From Microcaldota archaeon (GTDB taxonomy: Archaea > Micrarchaeota > Micrarchaeia > Anstonellales > Bilamarchaeaceae), in contig JAUWMC010000006.1 of NCBI GenBank assembly GCA_030613375.1, positions 1 through 38,060 on the forward strand: 38,060 nucleotides of DNA, read 5' to 3'. The translations under genes were made by a program, and so were the position numbers. Below the pieces are notes generated by a model. It saw nothing but the letters and a program-made list of their open reading frames with translations, was not told where the DNA came from and did no database searches. The number at the start of each line of letters is the position of its first letter. Within the stretch, counting starts at the first letter, position 1. Shown piece by piece: positions 13,757 to 30,406 of this stretch.

Positions 13757-14500
13757 GTGGAGCGTTCGAATTGTTTAGCGGAAGTCTGTGGAATCCATGC
13801 AGGAGATGGATACTTACGAAATTCTGGATATAAACGAGAATTGGATGTGAGTGGTAATCTAGAAGAAAAATCATATTACGATGGATATGTGGCTCCTCTT
13901 TTTTCGCGAGTGTTTAAACTTGAGGTAAAAACCAGGAGTTTCCCTTCTAGGAGAACATATGGGTTTGTAATAAGAGATAAAACTGCAATTGAAAATATGC
14001 ACGAGGTAGGGTTCCCATATGGAAAAAAAAGTTCTATAGTAAGGGTTCCTGAGTTCGTAATGAAAAGTAAAAATAAATGGGTGAAAGCAGCCTTCCTTAG
14101 AGGTTTTTTCGATACGGACGGGTGCTTGGCGTTTGAAAGGAAACGTGGAAAGTATTGCACATTCAAAAAAACTCATCACTATTACCCTCTTCTCATCCTA
14201 AATACAATCTCGGGGGGATTGGCCAATGACATGGAGATTCTCTTGGAAGAACTTGGATTGCATTTTTGTAGGGAATGTAGGAGACCCAAACAGGAGGGAT
14301 GGAAACCCCTAAACCGGATCTGGTTACGAGGAACCTTTTTTGTAGAATGGATGAAACTGGCGGGTAGCAAAAATCCTTCCAAATTAAGCAGATATCAAAT
14401 ATGGAAGAGATATGGGCACTGCCCCCCAAACACCACATTTGCGGAACGTTTATCAATATTGAGTGGAGAAATTAAGTTGGACCATGGGCCCGTGTGGTAG
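13757..14500 (+). CDS. LAGLIDADG homing endonuclease
   Basis: This 247-residue protein has two LAGLIDADG motifs, so it should act as a monomer that cuts a long DNA site. Motif 1 is LAEVCGIHAGDGYL (7-20, catalytic Asp17) and motif 2 is FLRGFFDTDGCLAF (113-126, Asp121). Both catalytic acids are present and the frame is intact. It starts at GTG 13757 with no Shine-Dalgarno. The last five codons and stop lie within the 5' part of the tRNA-Arg gene (overlap 14486-14500). It is therefore free-standing beside a tRNA, not inside the tRNA's 25-nt intron. A role as a maturase or as a domesticated DNA-binding factor cannot be excluded. Confidence 0.9.
   Translation: MERSNCLAEVCGIHAGDGYLRNSGYKRELDVSGNLEEKSYYDGYVAPLFSRVFKLEVKTRSFPSRRTYGFVIRDKTAIENMHEVGFPYGKKSSIVRVPEFVMKSKNKWVKAAFLRGFFDTDGCLAFERKRGKYCTFKKTHHYYPLLILNTISGGLANDMEILLEELGLHFCRECRRPKQEGWKPLNRIWLRGTFFVEWMKLAGSKNPSKLSRYQIWKRYGHCPPNTTFAERLSILSGEIKLDHGPVW
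14449..14458 (+). promoter_or_regulatory. Candidate tRNA-Arg promoter inside the endonuclease gene
   Basis: TTTATCAATA ends 27 bp before the first base of the tRNA, the normal TATA distance in archaea. It lies within the last 20 codons of the endonuclease gene, so tRNA transcription would start inside coding sequence. Confidence 0.45.
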
Positions 14501-17977: not shown

Positions 17978-19225
17978 TTAGAGTTCAATTACATCTCCGT
18001 TTTTGGGTGCAACTGCATCAAAGCCCATCGAGATAAGTTCTTTTGCAAATTCAGGTGTGTTGTCTCCGTGGTTGAGGATTATTTTTTCCGGGTTGGTTTT
18101 CTTTACGAAATCAATCAAGCCAGTGCGGCCAACATGGGCACTGAAATCAAGGTATTCTGCGGGGACTGAAACGTCCAGTTCATAACCATCTATCATGACC
18201 TTGTTTTGGTTGAGGATTCTTCGTCCGTTTGTTCCTTCTACATTGTACCCTGTAAAGATAATCTTGGAATTGGGGCTGAGATTTTGGAGATAGCTTAAGG
18301 CAGGACCACCTTCCATCATTCCTGCTGTGGAAACTATTACACTAGGTTCGTTTGTAGCATCCCTGCGGTCCCTTGGGTTTCCTACAAAGATTACTTCATG
18401 AGTTGCCTCTCTGAATGTTTTTGGGTCCTTTATGTAATCATCGTGTTTGAGGTAAATGTCGGTTACTGCCTTGGACATTCCATCCAAAAATATGGGAATT
18501 CCCCGGAGGTGGGCATGTAAAATAGAGATTAGTTCTTGAGATCGTCCCACTGCAAAGGCGGGGAGGAGAACTGAGCCACCATCGTCTATTGTTTCTTCTA
18601 TTTTGTGGATTAGTTGTTTTTCGGATTCTGCCCTATCTGGATGGTTTCGGTTGCTGTAAGTGGTTTCAAGAATTAAGTAATCTACCTCATCTGGAGCAAC
18701 TGCGCCTTTGTGCATCTGAGTATCGCTTTCCTTGAAATCTCCAGAATAGATAAGAGTTTTTCCTTCATATTTTGCTTTTATCATAGAAGAACCGAGAATG
18801 TGGCCCGCATCATGAAGAGAATAATCTGTTTTTCCAAGGGAAAGTGATTGTTCGTAAAGAAGGGGAGCATAATTGTTTTCTGCGCGGTTGATGTGCATTT
18901 CCTGGTAAGGAGCATCTTCTCCCATTATTTTAAGGGAATCTGCCCAAAGGAGAGATGCTATTTCCATTGTGGGGAGAGTACCAAACCAATGGGCCGGAGG
19001 ACGTGTGTAAAGCTCGGGAATGAAACCGCTATGGTCCAAGTGAGCATGGGAAAGAATCATTGCATCTATGTTCTCTTGATATGGAAGCGGAGTCATTTCC
19101 TGCTTGTTTGCTTTATGGCCTGTGTGGATTTTGAGGCCGTAATCAAAGAGGGTGCGCTGGTCTGTTTCAATCATGAAACAGCTTCTACCCACCTCCTGGC
19201 CGGCTCCTAAGCACTGAATTCTCAT
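17978..19225 (-). CDS. Beta-CASP metallo-beta-lactamase RNase (aCPSF2-like)
   Basis: Beta-CASP nucleases of this group (archaeal CPSF homologues) process or degrade RNA 3' or 5' ends; aCPSF1 orthologues mediate termination. The 415-residue protein has the zinc motif HAHLDH (60-65), His142 (DAGHILGSS), Asp163 (SGDFKESD), the beta-CASP acid in LETTYSNR, motif B-like STAGMMEGGP, and the C-terminal His motifs DFSAHVGR and LNHGD. It lacks the N-terminal KH domains of aCPSF1, so aCPSF2 is the better label. A TATA-like ATTATTAATCC at 19247-19257 is 27 bp from the ATG, implying a leaderless message. Confidence 0.93.
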   Translation of the reverse strand: MRIQCLGAGQEVGRSCFMIETDQRTLFDYGLKIHTGHKANKQEMTPLPYQENIDAMILSHAHLDHSGFIPELYTRPPAHWFGTLPTMEIASLLWADSLKIMGEDAPYQEMHINRAENNYAPLLYEQSLSLGKTDYSLHDAGHILGSSMIKAKYEGKTLIYSGDFKESDTQMHKGAVAPDEVDYLILETTYSNRNHPDRAESEKQLIHKIEETIDDGGSVLLPAFAVGRSQELISILHAHLRGIPIFLDGMSKAVTDIYLKHDDYIKDPKTFREATHEVIFVGNPRDRRDATNEPSVIVSTAGMMEGGPALSYLQNLSPNSKIIFTGYNVEGTNGRRILNQNKVMIDGYELDVSVPAEYLDFSAHVGRTGLIDFVKKTNPEKIILNHGDNTPEFAKELISMGFDAVAPKNGDVIEL

Positions 19226-19246: not shown

Positions 19247-19257
19247 GGATTAATAAT
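19247..19257 (-). promoter_or_regulatory. TATA box of the aCPSF2-like gene
   Basis: ATTATTAATCC on the - strand is centred 27 bp from the start codon. The palindrome at 19279-19294 is centred about 35 bp further upstream. Confidence 0.5.
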
Positions 19258-19278: not shown

Positions 19279-19294
19279 TGTAACCATGGTTACA
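19279..19294. promoter_or_regulatory. 16-bp palindrome, copy 1 (candidate operator)
   Basis: TGTAACCATGGTTACA is a perfect palindrome in the divergent region between the aCPSF2-like gene and acdB. The same 16 bp recur at 26631-26646. It is about 35 bp upstream of the aCPSF2 TATA and 70 bp upstream of the acdB TATA. Such a site would suit a dimeric helix-turn-helix regulator. Confidence 0.65.
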
Positions 19295-19352
19295 CAGACT
19301 CCCGAGAATCATTTTTTTCCATTATCCTACGTGGGGCCAAACCACCGGCGAG

Positions 19353-19361
19353 TTTAAAATA
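19353..19361 (+). promoter_or_regulatory. TATA box of acdBA
   Basis: TTTAAAATA lies about 26 bp before the acdB ATG, implying a leaderless transcript; the preceding CCGGCGAG could serve as BRE. Confidence 0.55.
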
Positions 19362-19382
19362 ATTGTAGGTTTAAGCTGAGTT

Positions 19383-20015
19383 ATGGTGAAGAAAGCTGCC
19401 CTTCCTGAATTCAGGATGCTTCAAAAATACGGCATCCATCCACTTTCCCATGGGATTGCAAAAACCTCTGCACAGGCCCTGAAAATTGCTGAAGAAATAG
19501 GCTATCCTGTTGCGCTGAAGATCGTTTCCCCTGAAATCTCGCACAAAACTGATGTTGGGGGGGTAATAATTGGAATACGTGATGGAAAAAGATTGGTTCA
19601 TGCATATGAAGATATCCTGGAGGGTGCAGGAAAACATAAGGTAACTGGAGTTCTTGTGCAAAAGATGGCACGAAAAGGAATTGAACTTATTATTGGGGGT
19701 AAAAAAGACCCTCAGTTCGGACACATGATTATCCTCGGGATGGGAGGAGTGTATGTTGAAGTATTCAAAGATGTAACTGCGCGCATCTGCCCCATAACCA
19801 AACAAGATGTTATTGAGATGATTAATGAACTTCAGACCCATCCATTACTTACAGGAGTACGGGGAATGGGGCCAATAAACATGAAGCAACTCTATTCTCT
19901 TATGGTAAAAACGTCTGAGATGATAGTAAAGGAAGACATGAAAGAGCTGGACCTGAACCCCGTAATCTTTGATGAAAAAGGATATGATATTGTTGATGTG
20001 AGGTTTCGGAAATGA
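19383..20015 (+). CDS. acdB: Acetyl-CoA synthetase (ADP-forming), beta subunit
   Basis: With the alpha subunit this enzyme converts acyl-CoA, ADP and phosphate into acid, CoA and ATP, a main energy-conserving step in fermenting archaea. The 210-residue protein is the ATP-grasp part: PVALKIVSPEISHKTDVGGV near the start, LVQKMARKGIELIIGGKKDPQFG in the middle, and the metal-binding LDLNPVIFDEKG at the end. Length is close to the usual beta subunit (~230). It starts at ATG 19383 and overlaps acdA by 4 nt (ATGA). Confidence 0.95.
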   Translation: MVKKAALPEFRMLQKYGIHPLSHGIAKTSAQALKIAEEIGYPVALKIVSPEISHKTDVGGVIIGIRDGKRLVHAYEDILEGAGKHKVTGVLVQKMARKGIELIIGGKKDPQFGHMIILGMGGVYVEVFKDVTARICPITKQDVIEMINELQTHPLLTGVRGMGPINMKQLYSLMVKTSEMIVKEDMKELDLNPVIFDEKGYDIVDVRFRK

Positions 20016-21397
20016 GGAAAGATATTGCAAATCTCAAGTATGTTTTTAACCCGAAATCAATTGCAATTATCGGGGCCTCGGATAATCCAGCAAAGCTGGG
20101 AAATGTGATACTCAAAAACTTAGTTGATGGGGGATTTGAGGGAAAAATATATCCCATTAATCCAAAATACCCTGAACTTTTGGGGCTGAAATGTTATCCA
20201 AGCATCAAAAAATTAAAGGGGAAGGTGGACATGGCAATCTTTGCGGTTCCTTCGAAGATAGTTCCTGCAATTGCAGATGACTGCGGAAAGAATGGAGTAA
20301 AGGGAATTGTTGTTCTGTCTGCAGGATTTGGAGAGGTCGGAAACGTTGCGCTGGAGGAGAAACTGAAGAATGTTGTGCTTAAACATAATATGGCAATGAT
20401 TGGCCCAAATTGCCTTGGGGTAATGAACCCTGAAAAAAGAGTGGACAGTATCTTCTTCCCATTCTACAAGTTCGGAAGACCGAATGTGGGGGGGATTTCG
20501 CTTATTACCCAGAGTGGAGCGGTTGGATCGTGTATTGCAGACCTTGCTGCATATTACGGGGTTGGGTTTGCGAAATTTGCTTCCTACGGAAACGGAACTA
20601 CGATAAATGATGCAGACCTGCTCGAGTATTTTGGAGCAGACCCGAAAACAGAACAAATCCTTCTTTATGTGGAGGGAACCAAGAATGGGGCGAAATTGCT
20701 GGAAATGCTAGAGAAAGTGAATAAGAAAAAACCGATAATCGTGCTGAAGGCAGGTAAGAGCAAGGCAGCCGGGGAAGCTGCAATGTCCCACACCGGGAAC
20801 CTTGCAGGGAATTATATGGCATACAAAGCTGCGTTCAGGCAAAGCAAGGCAATTGAAGTAGATTCAGTAGTAGATTTGTTCTATGTTGCAAATATGTTCA
20901 GCCAGGCGCGGCCTAAAGGAAAGAAAGTTGCAGTACTTACTGATGGAGGTGGGTTGGGGGTGCTTACTGCCGATTCGCTGGAAGAAGAAGGATTAGAAGT
21001 TACGAAATTCGGTAAGGAAACAAAAAAGAAGCTGAAGAAAGTGCGTCCGGAATATGTAAATGTTGTGAATCCTTTGGATATTGTTGCGGATTCCGGGACA
21101 GATACCTATCGGAAATCTTTGAGAATCCTTATGGAGGATAAGGAGATTGATTCTATTATAGTAATAATACTTTTCCAGGCACCTGCTGTTGATTCACGAA
21201 TAATAGATATATTAGTGAAAGAATCTGACAAGCAGAAAAAGCCGATAATCGTTGTTGCGGTGGGAGGAGAATACACTAAAGAAAATAGGAGGATACTAGA
21301 TAGTTATGGGATTCCCACCTATGGGTCTCCTGCTTCTGCTGTTAAAACACTGAAAAAATTCACTGATTATTCACTTTTTCTTAAGAACAAGAAATAG
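20012..21397 (+). CDS. acdA: Acetyl-CoA synthetase (ADP-forming), alpha subunit
   Basis: The alpha subunit carries the CoA-binding and succinyl-CoA-ligase-like domains. Visible are the CoA-binding Rossmann motif IIGASDNPAKLGN (19-31), MIGPNCLGVMNP (129-140), ITQSGAVGS (165-173) and the phosphohistidine motif EAAMSHTGNLAG with His260. The 461 residues match the family length. It follows acdB with a 4-nt overlap, as in other archaea with separate subunits. Its end lies 2 bp from the convergent orphan gene. Confidence 0.96.
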   Translation: MRKDIANLKYVFNPKSIAIIGASDNPAKLGNVILKNLVDGGFEGKIYPINPKYPELLGLKCYPSIKKLKGKVDMAIFAVPSKIVPAIADDCGKNGVKGIVVLSAGFGEVGNVALEEKLKNVVLKHNMAMIGPNCLGVMNPEKRVDSIFFPFYKFGRPNVGGISLITQSGAVGSCIADLAAYYGVGFAKFASYGNGTTINDADLLEYFGADPKTEQILLYVEGTKNGAKLLEMLEKVNKKKPIIVLKAGKSKAAGEAAMSHTGNLAGNYMAYKAAFRQSKAIEVDSVVDLFYVANMFSQARPKGKKVAVLTDGGGLGVLTADSLEEEGLEVTKFGKETKKKLKKVRPEYVNVVNPLDIVADSGTDTYRKSLRILMEDKEIDSIIVIILFQAPAVDSRIIDILVKESDKQKKPIIVVAVGGEYTKENRRILDSYGIPTYGSPASAVKTLKKFTDYSLFLKNKK

Positions 21398-21399
21398 GT

Positions 21400-23616
21400 T
21401 TAGAGCTTGACGAAACGATCTATTTCAACAGTAACTGTTTTTCTGAGGGAATCCATATCTGCTGCATCAGCAGCATAAATTTTTTCCATTTTTTTCGCAA
21501 GGAACATTGGGGAGATCCTCATTGAGGGGTTGAGGTTGAAAATCCCTCTGAATTTTTCCATCCCGTTTTCATCAGCAAAAATCAATCTGGCTGCTTTTTC
21601 GAAGTCTCTTTCCCTCATTGCTTTCGCAATTTCGGGATTTTCGATCTGGGCAGGATTAATGACCTCCCTTTCAAGAAGAGGGAGTTTTTCTTCTATCATA
21701 TCATTCCCTCCTGAATTTCCTGTAGAAATAGTATCGGCAGTATCAACCATCTGATAGAACAGCTTGGGGCTTCCGGAATATCCTGCTGATTCCATAATCC
21801 TAAGGATGTCTTCTGAAGGAATAAGAAGTTGGATTGCGAGCTTCTCTGTTGTTACATTAATTGATTTACTTTTTTCTGCTGCTTCTTCGAGAGCTAGGAA
21901 TGTTATTCCCTCCCCCTTAACCAACATTGGGTGGAAGCCCTTTTTCCTGAGAAGCATTTGTGCCCCACTTGAATTTGAGAAGGTAAGTGCAAAGAGCGAA
22001 CGGTTCTGGCTTTCAGCAAGCTGCTTAAGGAAAGAGATTGCTTCTTCAAAACAATTTACTGCTTCATCGTAAAGAGGCTTTCCCTCTGCGGCCTGGGGGT
22101 TGAACTCCAAGGCGTCAATTATCACTGCCTCCCCTCCTGCAATCGTCCCAAGCGTAATATTCATTTTTCCTATGAAGTGTTTGCCACTGGACATCTTTAT
22201 GATATTATATGCGGGATTGATGAGCCAGGTTACTGAGTTTCCGAAATTTACGCTTCCTTTCGCAGTGCAGTCTCCGCACTTGTCCCCTAAAGAAAGGTCA
22301 CTCTTTTCCCTTCTTGCAAACCTAAATTTTACGCCATTTGAATATTTTGCCTGTGAAAGAACTGCTGAAAGACCAGGATCATCTTTGAGTTGTTTCATCT
22401 GCGAAACTTGAAAGACTGCATCGAGTATCTCATCTGCATAGAAAGTGAAATGGGTTGATTTTAGGTTCTTTGAACGCACTCCAAGTGATTGAGAAAGCAC
22501 ATTGTCCAGCTTATTGATTCTTGGTCCAAGCTTCTGTGATGCAATCCTGACTGATTCCCTTGCGAGCTCAGGGTTGTTTACTGTAATCCATGCCTGGGGA
22601 TTTGGGAGGGATTCAAGCAAATCAGAGCCTTCTAACACTAGCTGTTTTATATCTCTGTTTTGGGCAAGAAGGGAATATGCTGATTTCTGGTCTTCCATGG
22701 TAAGTAACCTACCAACTTCATCTGATCTGTTCATAGTTAAAAGTCTCTGGACTCCTCCCGTGAAACCAAGTTCTATCAGACAGAGCTCATAATCTCCTAA
22801 GAATTCTGTTCTAGATTCATGTGCTAAAGAATAAATAGTTTTCAAAGTGGGTAACGCCTCTTTTGCCCCAAGGAAAGCAAGGCACGCACACTTGGAACGA
22901 ATGTCTCCACTATCCATCGCTTGCTCTAGGAAAGATCTATGGTTCTCACTAAGGGGATGGCGGTACCCATCTAGCCAAACAGAGATTTTCTCTTTTTTCA
23001 AATACCCAATAATAAGACCTGAAAGCTCCTTTGCACGTTCTGTTCCTTTTATATGTTGGGAAACCAGAGGAAAGAGATGTTCCCCATCACCAAGAAAATT
23101 ATCGGATGTTGCTTGCACCTTCGCAATTTCGAAAAGGAGGTCTCCTGCTCCTTGATGCCGAGACTCTGCAAGAATAAAGAGTGTAGCAAGAGCCTGCCCT
23201 TCTAATCTTGTGTCTAGGGTTGTGTCTAGGTCGTAACTGTCACGCTGGAAGGACCTAAATATCTCAATAAGAGCAGAGAATTGTTCATCGCTTATTGGAA
23301 TTTTTGGTTTAGTATGATCAAAACCAAGATCTCCCAGTGTGGGACTGTTCTCAAAAAGATTGAGAATGGATCCATCACCAACAACACGGTCTGATAAAAA
23401 TATTGTTAACTCCTTAATCTGATCCACAGTCAGCTTTCCGAAAACCTCCCTTATTGGAGTGAAAATATCGTCACTTTTCCCCTTGAGCACCTTTTCAAAC
23501 GGCTTTTTCCAGTCGAGTGAGTCAGTGAGGGGATCGTTTTTGCCTAGTTGTGCCTTTGGCTTGATGATGGGCTTGCTGACAGTCTCGTTAGTGCGAATGC
23601 CTCTGGTCTTTGCCAT
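21400..23616 (-). CDS. 738-residue orphan with helical-repeat and GNAT-like regions
   Basis: I do not recognise the whole protein. Residues 1-70 are polar. About 70-370 is helical with HEAT-like stretches (SGDIRSKCACLAFLGAKEALPTLKTI). About 385-570 looks like a separate alpha/beta domain with KFRFARR, a CGDCTAKG motif near 448-455, NYL-like strands and the ALTFSNSSGAQMLLRKKGFHPML segment, which resembles the acceptor-side end of GNAT folds. The C-terminal ~170 residues are helical. No membrane segment is present. A TATA box (CTTTATAAAC, 23641-23650) is about 30 bp from the ATG. Acyltransferase or protein-binding roles are guesses. Confidence 0.8.
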   Translation of the reverse strand: MAKTRGIRTNETVSKPIIKPKAQLGKNDPLTDSLDWKKPFEKVLKGKSDDIFTPIREVFGKLTVDQIKELTIFLSDRVVGDGSILNLFENSPTLGDLGFDHTKPKIPISDEQFSALIEIFRSFQRDSYDLDTTLDTRLEGQALATLFILAESRHQGAGDLLFEIAKVQATSDNFLGDGEHLFPLVSQHIKGTERAKELSGLIIGYLKKEKISVWLDGYRHPLSENHRSFLEQAMDSGDIRSKCACLAFLGAKEALPTLKTIYSLAHESRTEFLGDYELCLIELGFTGGVQRLLTMNRSDEVGRLLTMEDQKSAYSLLAQNRDIKQLVLEGSDLLESLPNPQAWITVNNPELARESVRIASQKLGPRINKLDNVLSQSLGVRSKNLKSTHFTFYADEILDAVFQVSQMKQLKDDPGLSAVLSQAKYSNGVKFRFARREKSDLSLGDKCGDCTAKGSVNFGNSVTWLINPAYNIIKMSSGKHFIGKMNITLGTIAGGEAVIIDALEFNPQAAEGKPLYDEAVNCFEEAISFLKQLAESQNRSLFALTFSNSSGAQMLLRKKGFHPMLVKGEGITFLALEEAAEKSKSINVTTEKLAIQLLIPSEDILRIMESAGYSGSPKLFYQMVDTADTISTGNSGGNDMIEEKLPLLEREVINPAQIENPEIAKAMRERDFEKAARLIFADENGMEKFRGIFNLNPSMRISPMFLAKKMEKIYAADAADMDSLRKTVTVEIDRFVKL

Positions 23617-23640
23617 ATACTATATATTAATAATAATAAT

Positions 23641-23650
23641 GTTTATAAAG
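23641..23650 (-). promoter_or_regulatory. TATA box of the 738-residue orphan
   Basis: CTTTATAAAC on the - strand lies about 30 bp from ATG 23616, with an AT-only leader rich in ATT repeats. Transcription is probably leaderless or nearly so. Confidence 0.55.
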
Positions 23651-23667
23651 GTGTTGGTTTGTGGATA

Positions 23668-24318
23668 TTACTCTTTCCTAAGCACTAAAAATAGGTGGTC
23701 CTTCTCATAAGGTTCCAGGTTTATTTCTTCAATTAGCTCAAGCTCTTTGGAAAGCTCTTCCTTTACTTGTTTGTAAGTTTCCTCAGGCTTTTTGGTAACG
23801 TCTATGCTCTGGGACTTTATTGCAATCATTGCATAGCCGCCTTTTTTCAGGAAAGCACGGCAGTTTTTGAGGAGAATGTCTGCCTGTTCGGGAGATGCAA
23901 CATCTTCATATACAATGTCTACTTCGCCAACCTCCTTGTATGTGTGGGGCTGGCGCGCATCGGCAAGAATAGGAATTAAATTTTCCCTTTTCTCGCACAG
24001 GCGCAAAAGATTCTTCATGGAATGGGCGGAAATTTCGACTCCATATAGCCCTCCATCCGTAAGGATGTCCGAAACATGGGAAGGCGTAGTGCCTGTGGAA
24101 GCACCAAGGTAAAGAACCACAGAATCGTGCTTAATCGGGTTGTTCTTAAGGCCTTTTTTGATTGCAGCGCAGAGCTTGCTCCGGTTAGGGTTCCAAGCAC
24201 GATACTCTTTCCCTTCTACCTTAATCAGATTCTCCCCATATACTTTGAAGCCGGGAACCATATTTCGAGTAAGGATGCGCCCTTGGTGCTCGAAAACATT
24301 ATCGAAAATCTCTTTCAT
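23668..24318 (-). CDS. flpA: Fibrillarin-like rRNA/tRNA 2'-O-methyltransferase
   Basis: Fibrillarin is the SAM-dependent catalytic subunit of C/D-box sRNPs; with Nop5 and L7Ae it methylates rRNA and tRNA riboses. The 216-residue protein shows YRAWNPNRSKL (39-49), the SAM motif YLGASTGTTPSHVSDI (70-85), GVEISAHSMKNLL (93-105), the acidic VDIVYEDVASPEQADI stretch and MIAIKSQSIDVT. Length is normal for archaea. It lies 26 bp downstream of the TFE gene on the same strand, with AAGGT before its ATG. Confidence 0.97.
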   Translation of the reverse strand: MKEIFDNVFEHQGRILTRNMVPGFKVYGENLIKVEGKEYRAWNPNRSKLCAAIKKGLKNNPIKHDSVVLYLGASTGTTPSHVSDILTDGGLYGVEISAHSMKNLLRLCEKRENLIPILADARQPHTYKEVGEVDIVYEDVASPEQADILLKNCRAFLKKGGYAMIAIKSQSIDVTKKPEETYKQVKEELSKELELIEEINLEPYEKDHLFLVLRKE

Positions 24319-24344
24319 AAAAATACCTTAGATAAAGAAGAAAA

Positions 24345-25289
24345 TTAAAGGTGAGGTTTTCTGAACGCCTTCATCGGGAAGAGCTCTTCTGCCTTGGCTT
24401 CAGAAAGGAAATCTAAAGCTGAGCTGCAGGTCGGACACTTGAACCCGAAGTCAGATGCAGAAACGAATTCGTGAATGCTTGCACCTCCACAACTAGGGCA
24501 GAAATAATATTCTCCCCCGCTAAAATCAAAGTTGCGGCGCTCTTCCTCAATTCGATCATTTACCCACCCCTTCATCTTGTCAACATTCAAGCACCAGAAA
24601 TATGAAAACCAACCGGTTTCAGAATCCTTGTGGCGAGTATACTCCACGATACCTAACGAATGGAGTTTGTTCAAGGTTGCGCGTACATCGCTGATTTTTA
24701 TCTTGAGTTTCTTGCACATATCCTCATCGCTAGAATTGTTGGAAAATCCTCGTACGATTTCGAGTGCGTGTTCACCTCCAAATTCGATAATAAGATGTCG
24801 TGCATAGGAATCGGAAAGGAGTTTACGGATTTCAGCACGATTGAGCTCTTTTTCAGGAGTGGGAAATTTCTTTGTTTTCTTTTCCTTTAGTTTTGGCTGT
24901 AGTGCCTCCTTGGGCTTAGATATTTTTTTCACTAACTTTTTCTTTGTAACTTTTTTCTTGATTGGCTTCTTTTTCACTGTTTTCTTTTTGGCGGATCTCA
25001 CTGTTTTCTTTTTTGTGACCTTACACTTGGCAGGAACCCTTTTCTTAACGGTTTTCTTTGTAACTTTCTTTTTAGCGGTCTTTTTCTTTGGGGCTTTTTT
25101 CACTATCTTTTTTTTGACGAGGTTCTTTGATTTGATTTTTACCCGCTTTGCAACCGCTTTCCGAATTGCCTTCCTTGCAATTGATTTCTTGAGCTTCTTT
25201 TTAGGCTTAGCTTTAGTTGTGGAAGGCTTTTTCTTTGAGGATGTTTTTGGCTTTTTTTGTGCTTTTTTCTTCATCTGCTTTTTCGGCAT
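24345..25289 (-). CDS. tfe: Transcription factor E (TFE alpha) with histone-H1-like tail
   Basis: TFE helps RNA polymerase melt promoters. Residues about 150-310 are TFE: winged helix with MCKKLKIKISDVRATLNKLHSLGIVEY and the aromatic GWFSYFWCLN wing, a helical linker, then a zinc ribbon (C264, C267, C285, C288; FCPSCGG and FKCPTCSS). Before this are about 145 residues in which nearly half are Lys, with repeats such as KKKTAKKKVTKK and KKKTVKKKPIKKK, like histone H1 or bacterial H1-like tails. Normal TFE alpha is 170-190 residues. I start at ATG 25289, which has GGTGG five bases upstream; ATG-like 25301 is alternative. It is probably in operon with flpA. Confidence 0.9.
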   Translation of the reverse strand: MPKKQMKKKAQKKPKTSSKKKPSTTKAKPKKKLKKSIARKAIRKAVAKRVKIKSKNLVKKKIVKKAPKKKTAKKKVTKKTVKKRVPAKCKVTKKKTVRSAKKKTVKKKPIKKKVTKKKLVKKISKPKEALQPKLKEKKTKKFPTPEKELNRAEIRKLLSDSYARHLIIEFGGEHALEIVRGFSNNSSDEDMCKKLKIKISDVRATLNKLHSLGIVEYTRHKDSETGWFSYFWCLNVDKMKGWVNDRIEEERRNFDFSGGEYYFCPSCGGASIHEFVSASDFGFKCPTCSSALDFLSEAKAEELFPMKAFRKPHL

Positions 25290-25378
25290 TAGGACCACCA
25301 TAGGAGTAGATCTATTTAGGGGTAAATCAGGTATTTAAAGGTTTTGAGATTGCGAAAGGCAAAGGGTTTTATTTAGAT

Positions 25379-26635
25379 ATGCTACCTCACCGGAAACCTA
25401 CCCTGAAAGATATTTTAAGCTGGAAACCGAAAAGGAAGTGTGAGTGGGAAATGAAGCCTGATAATTATTGCGTAACCTGTAAAGGAACCAAAAACTTGTG
25501 CGGCCTTGGATATTGCCCAATTCTAAAAAAGATACATATACAGCACAAGTTCAGCGGAGAGATAAAACAGGATGTTTTTGGGGCTTCGAACGAAGCGTTT
25601 GTAGGTTCAGCAAATTATCCAGATGTTTCCTGGGGGCCAGTGCTTTCTTTAGAATCCCACAAAGGAATGCGGGATATTTACGAAGAGGGATATGATAAAG
25701 TTATTGAGTATCGCGCGGCGATGGTAAAAGGAAAGAGGTTTGGGGGAATACGACCGCACAAAAGAAGTGTGGAGGAAACGCAGGAAGCCGTGCTTTCAGT
25801 AAAACCTGTAGATATTGAGATTAACTTTTCTAGGAAGCCGCGGTATGATATGCGGTTTTCTTCGGTTGTTCAGCCCACCGGGGCATCAGCACCCATGAGA
25901 AGGGTGAGGATATGCGACAACCCCAAAATACCAAAACAAGTGGATACGCTTATTGAGGAGGGAAGAAAAGCAAGGGAAACTGTGATTGAGCTGCACAGCA
26001 AAGGTCTGGATAACTACTATATTACAAATGTACTTTCGGTCGGAAAGCTGGGTGTTTTTGAAAATAGAATTATGGTGCCTACAAGATGGAGCATAACTGC
26101 AACGGATGATATGCTGGGAAAACATCTTATGGAAAGGGTGAGAGAGTACAAGCAGATGAACAAGGTGTGGGTTTTCAGCCACGAATCATTCTCCAACCAT
26201 TATGAGATACTGGTTATTCCAGGAGCATGGGAATTTGAGAATTTTGAGGCGTGGTGCCCAAAAACGATTTGGAACATGGTGGGAAGTACAGCAAGAGTGA
26301 GTAAAGAGTACGAGCCATTCCACGGAAGGAGTAAATACGCTGTATCCCAAGCGGGAGCGTATTATGCTGTAAGGCTTGCTGTGTTGGAATTCCTAGAACG
26401 AATACGGAGACAAGGGAGGGTTGTTGCAATAAGGGAAGTGTATGAAGGGTACCAGGTTCCCGTAGGTGTTTTCCAAGTAAGGGAGAATGCAAGGGACGCT
26501 ATGGAGAACCCCCAGATGTATTCTTCTGTAAAAGAAGCGGTGGAAGCGGCTTCTGGGAGGATGAGGCTGCCTAGTTCTGATTACACCAAACGTAGCCAGG
26601 TTATAGGGCAGAAGAATTTGCTGGAATATATGTAA
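25379..26635 (+). CDS. nreA: DNA repair protein NreA
   Basis: NreA is an archaeal DNA repair protein known to interact with PCNA. The 418-residue protein has a four-cysteine zinc site near the N-terminus (C31, C34, C41, C46; CVTCKGTKNLCGLGYC), the family segment FGASNEAFVGSANYPDVSWGP, and an extreme C-terminal PIP-like box QKNLLEYM (411-418). The stop codon TAA (26633-26635) lies inside the second palindrome. ATG 25379 is the first start after the divergent region shared with tfe. Confidence 0.93.
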   Translation: MLPHRKPTLKDILSWKPKRKCEWEMKPDNYCVTCKGTKNLCGLGYCPILKKIHIQHKFSGEIKQDVFGASNEAFVGSANYPDVSWGPVLSLESHKGMRDIYEEGYDKVIEYRAAMVKGKRFGGIRPHKRSVEETQEAVLSVKPVDIEINFSRKPRYDMRFSSVVQPTGASAPMRRVRICDNPKIPKQVDTLIEEGRKARETVIELHSKGLDNYYITNVLSVGKLGVFENRIMVPTRWSITATDDMLGKHLMERVREYKQMNKVWVFSHESFSNHYEILVIPGAWEFENFEAWCPKTIWNMVGSTARVSKEYEPFHGRSKYAVSQAGAYYAVRLAVLEFLERIRRQGRVVAIREVYEGYQVPVGVFQVRENARDAMENPQMYSSVKEAVEAASGRMRLPSSDYTKRSQVIGQKNLLEYM

Positions 26636-26648
26636 CCATGGTTACATA
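26629..26648. promoter_or_regulatory. 20-bp palindrome, copy 2 (candidate operator)
   Basis: TATGTAACCATGGTTACATA is a perfect 20-bp palindrome containing the same 16 bp as the copy at 19279-19294. It overlaps the nreA stop and is centred about 40 bp upstream of the purSL TATA box. That spacing is close to the one at the aCPSF2 promoter. Confidence 0.65.
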
Positions 26649-26673: not shown

Positions 26674-26682
26674 ATTATAAAT
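26674..26682 (+). promoter_or_regulatory. TATA box of the purSL operon
   Basis: ATTATAAAT is about 40 bp before ATG 26718; GGTGG at 26708-26712 supplies the ribosome-binding site. Confidence 0.55.
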
Positions 26683-26717: not shown

Positions 26718-29633
26718 ATGCGAAGAATCGAAGTTAAGCCAAAGGGCAGTTTGCGGGAGCCTGCCTCATATTCTCTCAAAAAAGAAATAGAAACCACGTT
26801 CAAAGTAGACGTTGCAGACCTCATGATTACAAAGGCCTACAATAAAGATGCAGATCTGAGCGATGACGATCTGGACAAATTGGGCAAAGAGCTCTTCGCA
26901 GACAGAATCGCAGAAGAGTACACAATCTCAGAGCCTGCATATTCCAATATGTGGAGGATAGAAGTAGGCTTGCTTCCAGGCATGACAGATAATGTAGGTC
27001 GAACTGCAGGTGGCGCTATTTCCGACATAATAGGTCAAGAGTATCCAGTGTACTACTCACGCGTATTTTACATTGATGCTGAATTCGAAGACGAGGATGT
27101 GCTAGATGAGATTGCCGATAAACTATTGGCGAACAAAGTAATAGAACGCTGGAGGATTTACAGCCCAAAGGACAGCAAGTTCGAGCCCTTTCCTGCAAAG
27201 GTGGAGCTTGACCATGAGCCAACGGTAGAGGAAATAAATCTAGATATCGGTGCGGAGGCACTTGGAAAAATGAGTAAAGAACGCCTCCTCGCACTTTCCA
27301 TAGACGAAATGGAAGGGATAAAGGAATATTACGAACAGGGTGCCGTTCTAGAACAACGCAAAAAAGTAGGATTGGGGAACAAGGCAACTGATGTTGAGCT
27401 GGAAGCCCTTGCCCAATCTTGGAGCGAACATTGCAAGCACAAAATCTTCAATGCAGATATCGAATATTCTGAAAATGGGGAAGTTGTAGAGGAAATAAAA
27501 TCCATTTTCAAAACATATATCCAAGGGGCAACAGAAAGAGCGATGAAGCCATATGTTCTTTCTGTATTCAAAGACAATGGAGGAATAATCAAATTCAATC
27601 TGGACCATGATATTGCAGTAAAGGTAGAAACCCACAATGCGCCTTCCGCGCTCGACCCATACGGAGGCGCAATTACAGGCATATTGGGTGTGATCAGGGA
27701 TGTATTAGGAACAGGAATGGGAGCAAAGCCGATTGCAAACATGAACATGCTCTGTTTTGGGTATCTGGATGAAACAGAGATTCCTGAAGGGGTGATGCAC
27801 CCAAAGAGAATTGCAACCGGAGTAGTCAGGGGAATTAAAGATGGGGGAAATCCTGTAGGAATTCCTACAGTAAACGGATCCGTTGTTTTTGAAAAATGTT
27901 ATACTGCAAGACCGCTTGTTTATGCAGGAACTGTAGGCATAATGCCAAACAAGATTGGAGACAGACCAACAGCGGAAAAGAAAATAGAGCCTGGATATCT
28001 GGCAGTAATGGTTGGGGGAAAAATTGGAAAGGATGGAATACATGGAGCTACGTTCTCTTCACAGGAACTCACTATAGGGATAAACTCAAGTGTTGTACAG
28101 ATAGGGGATGCGATAACAGAAAAAAAAGTAATTGACCTTGTTCTGGAAGCAAGGGACAATATGCTCTTTGAAGCAATAACTGACAATGGAGCAGGTGGGC
28201 TTTCCTCAAGCATTGGAGAGCTTGCGCAGTTTTCAGGGGGATGTGAAATCTATCTGGACAAATGCCCTCTCAAATACCCTGGGCTCGATCCATGGGAAAT
28301 TTTACTTTCAGAATCCCAAGAAAGGATGACCCTGGCTCTCCCAAGGGAAAATTGGGAAGATCTAAAAGAGCTTGCAAAAAAACACGATGTTGAAGCGACA
28401 ATTGTGGGTACTTTTACAGACAGTGGTTATTTCCATATACTCTACAATGAGGAAACCATTGGATATCTAATGATGCAATTTTTGCATGAGGGAATGGGTG
28501 CGATGAAGCTCAAGGCAAATTGGGAAAAGAAGCTTCACCCAGAGCCAGACATTACAGACAGTGACCCAAATGATGTTCTCACAAAGCTGCTTGCTCAGCC
28601 AAACATCGCCTCTAAAGAGTGGGTGATAAGGCAATACGACCATGAAGTACAGGGTGGAAGCGTCATAAAGCCAATAATGTGCAACAACAGCACTTCTGAT
28701 GCTGCCGTGATCAGGCCAATTCTGGACTGGGAAGAAGGATTAGTAATTAGCCACGGAATGTGTCCAAGACAAGTTGAAGATGCATATCATATGGCCCAAC
28801 TTTCACTAGATGAAGCAGTAAGAAATGCTATTGCAACAGGAGCAATGTTTGGATATCTTGCATGTCTGGATAACTTCTCCTGGCCAGACCCAATCAAGTC
28901 CGAGAGAACACCCGATGGAGAATATAAGCTCGCTCAATTGGTCAGATGCGTAAAAGGCCTGCATGACATTGCGGTTGCTTATGGCTGTCCGCTTATTTCA
29001 GGAAAAGACAGCATGAAAAATGAATATACTGTAAACGGGCAGAAGTATGCAATAAACCCAACCCTCTTGGTTACTGTTGTTGGAAAGATACAGGATGTTG
29101 AAGAAGCAGTAACTGCAAACTTCAAAGAACCTGGAGACCTTATTTATGTTCTTGGAAAAACAAAGGGTGCGCTTGGAGGAAGCGAGTACTACAAGCTTTA
29201 TGGAGGGGTTGGAAATGGAATGCCAACTGTTGACCTAGATGCAAACATCCCGCTTTATACTTCACTTTCAAAGGCAACTGCTGCGGGGCTGGTCAGCTCT
29301 GCGCACGACCTCTCGGATGGGGGACTTGCCGTAGCACTAGCAGAGTGCACAATGGCAAACCTTAGGGGTGCGGATCTGGATCTGGACCTTTGCGAAAAGG
29401 AAACAGAAGAGGTAAATGCTCTTCTCTTCTCAGAAGACCCGGGAAGATTTATTGTAAGCGTAAAACCTGAAAATGAATCCAAGTTCGAAAAGACAATGGC
29501 AGGCACGGTGTTCAAGAAAGTTGGAAGAGTGCGGGGAGACAAACGCATGGTTATACGATATGGAGGGAAGACTGTTGTAAACCAAGATGCTTCAGATATG
29601 AAGATTTCCTGGAGGAGGGGATTGAAATTGTAG
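26718..29633 (+). CDS. purL: FGAM synthase, PurS-PurS-PurL fusion
   Basis: FGAM synthase makes formylglycinamidine ribonucleotide in step four of purine synthesis. The 971-residue protein begins with two PurS-like repeats (about 2-71 and 79-148; each starts R-I-E-V and ends in a strand such as RWRIYS). The PurL part follows, with LGNKATDVELEALAQSWSEHCKHK, KVETHNAPSALDPYGGA, the ATP-binding DNGAGGLSSSIGE and a second half-domain with SAHDLSDGGLAVALAE. The glutaminase is not fused but encoded next (purQ). ATG 26718 is chosen because of GGTGG; TTG 26706 is in frame. Confidence 0.95.
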   Translation: MRRIEVKPKGSLREPASYSLKKEIETTFKVDVADLMITKAYNKDADLSDDDLDKLGKELFADRIAEEYTISEPAYSNMWRIEVGLLPGMTDNVGRTAGGAISDIIGQEYPVYYSRVFYIDAEFEDEDVLDEIADKLLANKVIERWRIYSPKDSKFEPFPAKVELDHEPTVEEINLDIGAEALGKMSKERLLALSIDEMEGIKEYYEQGAVLEQRKKVGLGNKATDVELEALAQSWSEHCKHKIFNADIEYSENGEVVEEIKSIFKTYIQGATERAMKPYVLSVFKDNGGIIKFNLDHDIAVKVETHNAPSALDPYGGAITGILGVIRDVLGTGMGAKPIANMNMLCFGYLDETEIPEGVMHPKRIATGVVRGIKDGGNPVGIPTVNGSVVFEKCYTARPLVYAGTVGIMPNKIGDRPTAEKKIEPGYLAVMVGGKIGKDGIHGATFSSQELTIGINSSVVQIGDAITEKKVIDLVLEARDNMLFEAITDNGAGGLSSSIGELAQFSGGCEIYLDKCPLKYPGLDPWEILLSESQERMTLALPRENWEDLKELAKKHDVEATIVGTFTDSGYFHILYNEETIGYLMMQFLHEGMGAMKLKANWEKKLHPEPDITDSDPNDVLTKLLAQPNIASKEWVIRQYDHEVQGGSVIKPIMCNNSTSDAAVIRPILDWEEGLVISHGMCPRQVEDAYHMAQLSLDEAVRNAIATGAMFGYLACLDNFSWPDPIKSERTPDGEYKLAQLVRCVKGLHDIAVAYGCPLISGKDSMKNEYTVNGQKYAINPTLLVTVVGKIQDVEEAVTANFKEPGDLIYVLGKTKGALGGSEYYKLYGGVGNGMPTVDLDANIPLYTSLSKATAAGLVSSAHDLSDGGLAVALAECTMANLRGADLDLDLCEKETEEVNALLFSEDPGRFIVSVKPENESKFEKTMAGTVFKKVGRVRGDKRMVIRYGGKTVVNQDASDMKISWRRGLKL

Positions 29634-29650: not shown

Positions 29651-30406
29651 GTGCTTACTGGATATGGAATAAATTGCCCTGTTGAGACTGCATATGCGAT
29701 AACTGCAGTTGGGGGGAATGCTGAAATAAAGCATGCAAGCGAAATACTTGAAACCCCTTCTCTCCTAGACAACTATAACTTCCTAGTAATCCCAGGGGGA
29801 TTCTCGTTCGGAGACGATATTGGTTCTGGAAAAGTGCTTTCCAACAGATTGAGATACAAAGCAGGTGGAAAACTGCTTGATTTCATAAGTCAAGGCAAGC
29901 TCATGTTAGGAATCTGCAATGGGTTTCAGGTTCTCGTAAAAATGGGTCTTCTTCCTGAACCAGACTTTGAGCAAAAGGTTACAATAACTTACAACGAATC
30001 CGGGAAATTTGAGGATAGGTGGGTCAAGCTTCTTGTAAACCAAAAATCCCCGTGCATCTTCACCAGGGAACTCGCAGAGATTGATCTTCCCATACGGCAC
30101 GGAGAAGGGAGGTTCATACCAGCAACAAAAGAAATCCTCAATGAGATAACCAAGGATGACCTTCACGTAATGCAATATATCGATGATAAGGGAGGTCTTG
30201 GAAAATATCCCTGGAACCCAAATGGTTCGGTTATGAACATCGCAGGAATATGCGACAAAAGCGGGCAGGTTTTCGGCCTCATGCCGCATCCTGAAGCATA
30301 TAACCACCGGACCAACCACCCCTGCTGGGCAGGAGGAATAGGCTCAACAGGCCGCGGGCTTTCCCTATTCAGAAATGCAGTTTCTTACATCGAACAGGAG
30401 TGGTGA
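29651..30406 (+). CDS. purQ: FGAM synthase glutaminase subunit PurQ
   Basis: PurQ is the class I glutamine amidotransferase that feeds ammonia to PurL. The nucleophile lies in LGICNGFQVL (Cys89 if counted from GTG 29651), the oxyanion turn is VIPGGFSFGDD, and the His/Glu pair is in GLMPHPEAYNH. The start is uncertain: GTG 29651 leaves the first beta strand truncated and has no ribosome site. The frame stays open upstream, and ATT 29627 would add IVGKTNAL, completing the usual first strand, with GGAGGAGGGG at 29611-29620 seven bases before it. An AUU start overlapping the purSL end is possible. Confidence 0.93.
   Translation: MLTGYGINCPVETAYAITAVGGNAEIKHASEILETPSLLDNYNFLVIPGGFSFGDDIGSGKVLSNRLRYKAGGKLLDFISQGKLMLGICNGFQVLVKMGLLPEPDFEQKVTITYNESGKFEDRWVKLLVNQKSPCIFTRELAEIDLPIRHGEGRFIPATKEILNEITKDDLHVMQYIDDKGGLGKYPWNPNGSVMNIAGICDKSGQVFGLMPHPEAYNHRTNHPCWAGGIGSTGRGLSLFRNAVSYIEQEW

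Follow-up and report, generated by a model that had tools for sequence, protein, structure and literature searches.

The 16-bp palindrome TGTAACCATGGTTACA occurs twice in a 38,060-nucleotide stretch of a Microcaldota archaeon genome (GenBank assembly GCA_030613375.1, contig JAUWMC010000006.1, positions 1 to 38,060; hereafter the window), and it is a promoter-linked regulatory site of Micrarchaeota. Its targets vary by genus (purine genes in g1, the window's lineage, and in g4; MCM, PCNA and a permease in g7; purD in f15), with nucleotides and replication as their common theme. The commonest small gene adjoining the site, c1, encodes a basic protein with a predicted Cas2-like fold and is probably the gene of the regulator. 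We consider it reasonably probable, from genomic evidence, that c1 binds the palindrome in a putative replication origin, represses itself, and has been recruited to purine and replication promoters.

The palindrome across the genome and the phylum

The two exact copies in the window lie at 19279-19294 and 26631-26646, and no third match was found there even with up to three mismatches allowed. The expected number of matches in the window is 0.16 and none of 100 shuffles contained two copies, so that the original prediction, made from the sequence alone, was right both about the two positions and in judging such a coincidence very improbable. The window's genome (G000; 1.16 Mb in 90 contigs) has 13 exact copies, two with one mismatch, none with two and six with three. 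Because a reversed control gives only six matches up to three mismatches, the 15 good copies are not due to chance; none of them falls within an open reading frame (ORF) of at least 100 amino acids. Further promoter-linked copies, which the original prediction named as support for a regulon, thus exist elsewhere in the genome. A repeated flank is common to only three own-genome sites, which argues against the alternative that the copies belong to a repeated element. These three (L004, L014 and L015, at G000:C29:16858, C74:595 and C78:8306) have in common a flank of 54-86 nucleotides that is repeated only there and may represent a small promoter or element that was duplicated.

A scan of public genome contigs found the palindrome in at least 111 stretches, many of them in records titled Candidatus Micrarchaeota; 50 loci were left out as non-Micrarchaeota by title before the neighbor analyses. 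Among the matches listed were three Thauera (bacterial) records (L017, L055, L083) with one exact TGTAACCATGGTTACA each. In the phylum, the exact 16-mer is present in 19 of 301 genomes and is concentrated in g1 (6/6 genomes, 8-17 copies), g4 (5/5 genomes, 4-11 copies) and family f13. When the center is relaxed to TGTAACYATRGTTACA, 66 of the 301 genomes are positive and the reversed control gives none; all of the positives are within the 108 genomes G000-G107, and the other 193 have no site. Two more genera of f1 are rich in sites (12 copies in G051, 13 in G057), whereas the remaining positive genomes mostly contain a single copy or a pair.

Promoter linkage and target genes

From the Micrarchaeota, 199 unique sites were collected, of which 159 had enough flank to be counted, sites with truncated flanks being dropped. 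Only 18 of the 159 lie inside ORFs, compared with 81.6% of random positions, and 92 have an ORF start no more than 120 bp downstream, compared with 11.1%; the possibility that the copies are unrelated to promoters does not survive these counts. A restriction or methylation site is likewise disfavored, given that the sites avoid genes and stand at promoters. At 49 target promoters, 12 to 49 bp (median 31) separate the palindrome center from the center of a TATA-like box on its downstream side. Archaeal activators often bind just upstream of TATA, and the activator-like placement first noticed in the window holds for most target promoters.

Targets were taken as genes starting within 160 bp of a site and were clustered, with names assigned from one representative per cluster (NCBIfam, Pfam). 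Among the 199 sites, 31 precede genes of de novo purine synthesis (9 purF, 9 purL, 5 purE, 4 purP, 3 purN and 1 purD); in the window's own genome the purine sites are ahead of purP, purF, purSL and purE. Replication genes are also represented (priL at 3 sites, ATP-dependent DNA ligase at 3, MCM and PCNA at 1 each), and further targets include pyrD (1), a xanthine/NCS2 permease (1) and hisS (5). Multiple near-identical, promoter-proximal sites thus stand at related genes, as in a regulon. The original prediction of a promoter-linked regulon site was right in kind and is partly supported in its theme: purine synthesis stood and replication genes were added, while RNA 3'-end processing and acetyl-CoA metabolism fell away. 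The beta-CASP/acyl-CoA promoter that had suggested the latter recurs with the site in only two of the genomes examined (clusters T18 and T19).

The candidate regulator c1

The gene c1 adjoins 39 of the 199 unique sites and encodes an unannotated protein of about 77 amino acids with a median net charge of +7 and nearly invariant residues K20, R21, F23, Y24, Y25, K40, S41, D54, F56 and F57 (alignment numbering). It is present in 92 of the 301 genomes, nearly always in single copy, and like the palindrome it is confined to G000-G107 (0/193 others); 60 of the 66 palindrome genomes also have c1. The palindrome, with up to three mismatches, occurs in 76 of 85 intervals upstream of c1, 48 times in perfect form, and in 10 of 1,700 shuffled intervals. 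In the sister genus g2, the sole perfect site of the genome is at c1 in 8 of 17 genomes, and seven others have a one-mismatch version there. Symmetric double changes at the c1 sites of some lineages (TGTATCTATAGATACA, TGTGACTATAGTCACA, TGTACCTATAGGTACA) preserve the palindrome, as expected of a site bound by a dimer. In g1 the c1 site is between a TATA-like stretch (a loose call in an AT-rich region) and the start codon, the position expected for autorepression. Taken together, these observations make c1 the likely, though still candidate, regulator of the palindrome sites; its gene sits outside the window, as had been said of the regulator.

Several other candidates were tried and rejected. 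A TrmB-like gene near sites L014 and L031 and the Lrp-like and helix-turn-helix/nucleotidyltransferase genes in G051 each occur in no more than two genomes and do not serve as general binders. The idea that c1 is carried on a mobile element with inverted ends was also rejected, given that c1 is single copy nearly everywhere and keeps its synteny with hef and pheT; its absence from the plasmids, phages and viral contigs searched also counts against a mobile element. In many genomes c1 and a gene for a Hef-like helicase are transcribed divergently, and the named neighbors of c1 are hef, pheT and acyl-CoA synthetase.

An AlphaFold2 model of c1 has a beta-alpha-beta-alpha-beta order, with a predicted local distance difference test (pLDDT) value of 93.5 and a predicted template modeling (pTM) score of 0.80. 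The ten best chains returned by Foldseek for this model are all Cas2 (E 0.0045-0.016). VIA-align does not separate Cas2 from PII, CutA and other ferredoxin-like folds (Z 6-7.7), so that only the Foldseek ranking favors Cas2. On these models, c1 is predicted to have a Cas2-like fold. At the sequence level, the Cas2 family TIGR01573 gave a weak full-length match to one of four c1 members (E 0.036; 14.3 bits against a cut-off of 24.5). The protein has no Pfam match above cut-off, falls below every curated Cas2 cut-off, and had no meaningful match in a PDB sequence search. The c1 alignment demonstrated no specificity-determining column. No ParB relationship was found for c1 in Pfam or NCBIfam, the genome's other ParB genes not having been searched for.

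An origin-like locus around c1

On either side of c1 and the palindrome, inward-facing boxes follow the pattern CCCC-N(3-5)-TTCCRCTAWT. This origin-like locus, which lies outside the window, is where the palindrome is most widely conserved. The published common archaeal origin recognition box (ORB) is TCCA[CG]T[TG]GAAA[TC][GA]AAGGGGT (PMC4164010), and its reverse complement and the box are alike in the C-run, the spacing and TTCCACT and differ in the other half. Half-boxes are present on both sides of c1 at 48 of 82 loci (on any side at 58), compared with none of 1,640 shuffles on both sides and 1.6% on any; of the 136 other palindrome sites, just eight have at least one half-box. In 11 c1-less loci, the DNA within 70 bp of the palindrome is 62-79% AT, compared with 46-57% across the locus. 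The locus has two features of an archaeal oriC: inverted pairs of ORB-type boxes with the G-string (one half-site conserved, the second diverged) and an AT-rich region between them. The same half-box counts bear on a more modest explanation, that the palindrome is an ordinary purine operator of one lineage with no link to replication, the box and skew findings being coincidental. The 31 purine sites would fit such an operator, as would the four sites ahead of purP, purF, purL and purE in the window's genome. It would leave the half-boxes on both sides of c1 unexplained, together with the sites at primase, ligase, MCM and PCNA promoters, and most genomes of the c1 clade have the site at c1 or at a box pair and at no purine gene; we regard it as very improbable indeed.

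When the box is required to include the G-string, it matches in 169 of the 301 genomes, mostly once or twice and often as an inverted pair; a reversed box gives about 39 matches in all, and some of the matches outside the c1 clade are thus due to chance. In the list for the c1 clade (G001-G099, with overlapping double matches merged by hand), 57 genomes have 72 matches, of which 50 are within 500 bp of c1 and seven are within 500 bp of a palindrome that has no c1. These conclusions rest on the specific box pattern and not on a permissive inverted-repeat score, which at the locus is weak (maximum 40, compared with 34 at the random 99% level). A conventional full ORB with G-string was present in 4 of 16 genomes, and no rival origin was supported, the matching loci not having been inspected.

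Two observations on the boxes stand apart. In G108-G300, which have neither c1 nor the palindrome, inverted CCCCN(3-5)TTCCRCTAWT pairs occur about 90-170 bp apart and could be a phylum-wide origin signature. At the priL site of the window's own genome (L012, 1517-1527), the palindrome is immediately followed by AATAGTGGAA, a half-box otherwise seen at c1. On its own, AATAGTGGAA was rejected as the mark of a second regulon: it has eight own-genome copies (three for the reversed control), two at c1 and one at priL.

In some genomes the origin-like locus and c1 have come apart. In family f2, convergent PRC-barrel-like and TFE-like genes, recognized by eye, enclose a long AT-rich gap that contains the palindrome but not c1, which is elsewhere; at 8 of 10 such loci, half-boxes flank the palindrome on one side or both. 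In f2g20, a box pair brackets the palindrome without c1, and seven of the eight intervals upstream of c1 retain the palindrome with 1-3 mismatches; in six of these genomes a single perfect palindrome is found away from c1, each time at the gap locus. Since the separated f2g20 loci each retain the palindrome, the c1 product, and not just its neighborhood, appears to be tied to the site. This separation is the strongest genomic argument linking the c1 product to the palindrome. In G087, too, the origin-like locus retains the palindrome with no c1 beside it.

Is another protein the binder? A transcription factor, a nucleoid protein or Orc1/Cdc6 might bind the palindrome, c1 being merely its most conserved target. 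Such a binder would fit the lack of a recognized DNA-binding domain in c1, the six of 66 palindrome genomes that show no c1, and the c1-less loci of G087 and f2. It would also have to be the dedicated regulator of another small gene, with c1 as its sole perfect site in eight g2 genomes, and to account for the palindrome that the c1 promoter keeps after leaving the locus and for the clade limit common to both. We judge it unlikely, and continue to favor binding by c1.

Skew and the points on the other side

Skew was analyzed in one genome, the near-complete chromosome G089 (a 1.18-Mb contig, 800 kb of which was sampled on a 5-kb grid). Its GC skew has a change-point at 944.5 kb, which none of 200 block permutations matched in strength, and c1 is at 942.2 kb. 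The direction of the coding-strand change there would indicate an origin. By the usual rule the leading strand is G-rich, and the GC skew changes from plus to minus at c1, which by that convention indicates a terminus.

This last result is the first of several that weigh against an origin-bound, regulatory c1. The coding-strand and TA breaks at the same place are not significant (p 0.24 and 0.27). The orc1/cdc6 gene was present in all 15 genomes tested and never adjoined the locus, the nearest seen being about 6 kb away (G105). Fifteen of the 72 box matches in the c1 clade are elsewhere, and box pairs in f20-f28 have neither palindrome nor c1, so that the two are not needed at every such locus. 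For c1 itself, the gene was not found in six of the 66 palindrome genomes, perhaps through incompleteness; nine of the 85 upstream intervals have no site (in one, G082, it is further upstream); searches of Pfam and NCBIfam recognized no DNA-binding motif; and its clade correlation with the palindrome is confounded by descent. The TATA call at the AT-rich c1 promoters is loose: of 39 boxes, 13 are 15-17 bp and the others 21-44 bp away from the palindrome center. Among the sites in general, 67 of the 159 counted have no ORF start within 120 bp, and genes outside the theme also have them (hisS, thrS, ferredoxin, glycosyltransferase, the beta-CASP gene and others of no assigned function).

The skew direction, the missing orc1/cdc6 neighbor and the parS-like character of a 16-bp palindrome in several identical copies would all suit a terminus or segregation site (dif- or parS-like) whose partition or resolution palindrome was co-opted at promoters. 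The sites are at promoters of a single functional theme, the boxes match the ORB half and its G-string spacing, and c1 is neither a ParB nor a Xer relative in any library searched; a terminus or segregation site is decidedly improbable.

A model for c1

Under the favored model, a c1 dimer would bind the palindrome within the origin, in the AT-rich DNA between the ORB-like boxes. In most genomes the gene is inside the origin-like locus and its start codon follows the palindrome at a short distance, a placement that makes autorepression the most likely mode there. In g1, g4, g7, g9 and f15, where the site is 12-49 bp upstream of TATA-like boxes, c1 may have been recruited to promoters of purine, pyrimidine and replication genes and would act positively, from upstream of TATA. 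By repressing its own gene there, c1 could keep its amount in proportion to origin copies and, once recruited to pur and replication genes, would make nucleotide supply and replisome parts rise and fall with that amount. Such a circuit would follow a DnaA-like logic, in which a single origin-bound protein makes both the replication enzymes and the supply of nucleotides depend on origin state. The fuller claim, that a stand-alone Cas2-fold protein, encoded within the Micrarchaeota replication origin, has become a sequence-specific, self-repressing origin-binding regulator through which purine synthesis and the genes for primase, ligase, MCM and PCNA respond directly to origin state, is a tentative proposal on which we are close to evenly divided.

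The two copies in the window

The features around the two copies, in order, are as follows.

17978 to 19225, minus strand: metallo-beta-lactamase/beta-CASP/RMMBL protein, aCPSF2-like (ORF and family search)
19250 to 19257, minus strand: TATA-like ATTATTAA of the beta-CASP gene, read from the sequence, about 34 bp from the palindrome center and about 28 bp ahead of the start codon
19279 to 19294, no strand: 16-bp palindrome TGTAACCATGGTTACA, with the beta-CASP gene on one side and the divergently oriented acyl-CoA synthetase genes on the other, one of the 13 exact genome copies
19383 to 21397, plus strand: ADP-forming acyl-CoA synthetase in two ORFs (ATP-grasp at 19383-20015, CoA-binding/ligase at 20012-21397)
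26629 to 26648, no strand: 20-bp perfect palindrome TATGTAACCATGGTTACATA, core at 26631-26646, upstream of purSL
26674 to 26681, plus strand: TATA-like ATTATAAA of purSL, its center about 39 bp from the palindrome center
26718 to 29633, plus strand: purS-purL fusion, with the ATG at 26718 preferred (the ORF opens at TTG 26706)
29651 to 30406, plus strand: purQ-like glutamine amidotransferase (GATase_5; family search)

The two TATA distances are close to the 35-40 bp originally estimated. The TATA-like box of the acyl-CoA synthetase ORFs is about 70 bp away from the first copy, making them the less likely target. That copy does not extend to a 20-bp perfect palindrome, unlike the second, which overlaps the stop codon of the preceding nre gene (25379-26635). 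The PurS and PurL assignment of the window gene was confirmed for its relatives by family search. Genes resembling TFIIE-alpha and Nre, an archaeal DNA-repair family, are directly upstream of purSL (24348-26635), and TFE-like genes also flank the c1-less box locus in f2. An ORF at 13757-14500 looks by eye like a LAGLIDADG-type homing endonuclease.

Significance and comparison with known systems

Searches of one open-access library found no report of a Micrarchaeota origin, no archaeal purine regulon of this sort, and no description of this motif, its regulon or its locus in Micrarchaeota. On the questions of where Micrarchaeota begin replication and how archaea keep nucleotide supply in step with it, these results provide a precise candidate origin, a synthesizable 77-residue candidate binder and a defined 16-bp site. 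If the model is true, c1 would represent a class of archaeal regulator that is new, its circuit would be the first in DPANN archaea to tie nucleotide supply to an origin, and sequence-specific control of genes and origins would join CRISPR integration and toxins among the roles of the Cas2 fold.

The Cas2/VapD family has the fold predicted for c1, and in both a conserved YD closes strand 1; c1 differs in its link to a palindrome in operator-like positions and in scoring below the curated cut-offs. An analogy in logic is bacterial DnaA, which binds the origin, is autoregulated and also acts on nucleotide-supply promoters. We claim no relation to DnaA in sequence or fold, and c1 is far smaller and is not an ATPase. 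TrmBL1 (with its TGM motif) and SurR of Thermococcales activate from palindromic sites upstream of TATA and repress from sites downstream; their placement logic is like that proposed for c1, although they belong to the winged-helix proteins and differ in motif and pathway.

Compared with archaeal oriC as described for Ori-Finder 2 (PMC4164010), the c1 locus has counterparts in the TTCCACT boxes and the G-string at the same spacing, inverted around AT-rich DNA; one genome also has a skew break there, of ambiguous sign. The locus departs from that description in the second half of the box, which is ATT/AAT and not TGGAA, in having no adjacent orc1/cdc6, and in the additional palindrome and gene between the boxes. 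The closest published parallel to c1 itself would be UBP of Sulfolobus, which is described as a small basic protein (111 amino acids) that binds DNA as a monomer through beta-hairpins and recognizes an essential origin motif, the 11-bp ucm, and 329 other sites, counted as chromatin immunoprecipitation (ChIP) peaks and having no pathway theme (PMC12141716). Both UBP and the proposed c1 are small basic archaeal proteins associated with an origin and with other sites, modulating expression nearby. On that description c1 is set apart from UBP by its length (about 77 amino acids), its predicted Cas2-like fold, its 16-bp palindrome with at most about 17 perfect sites, its purine and replication theme, and the presence of its own gene in the locus.

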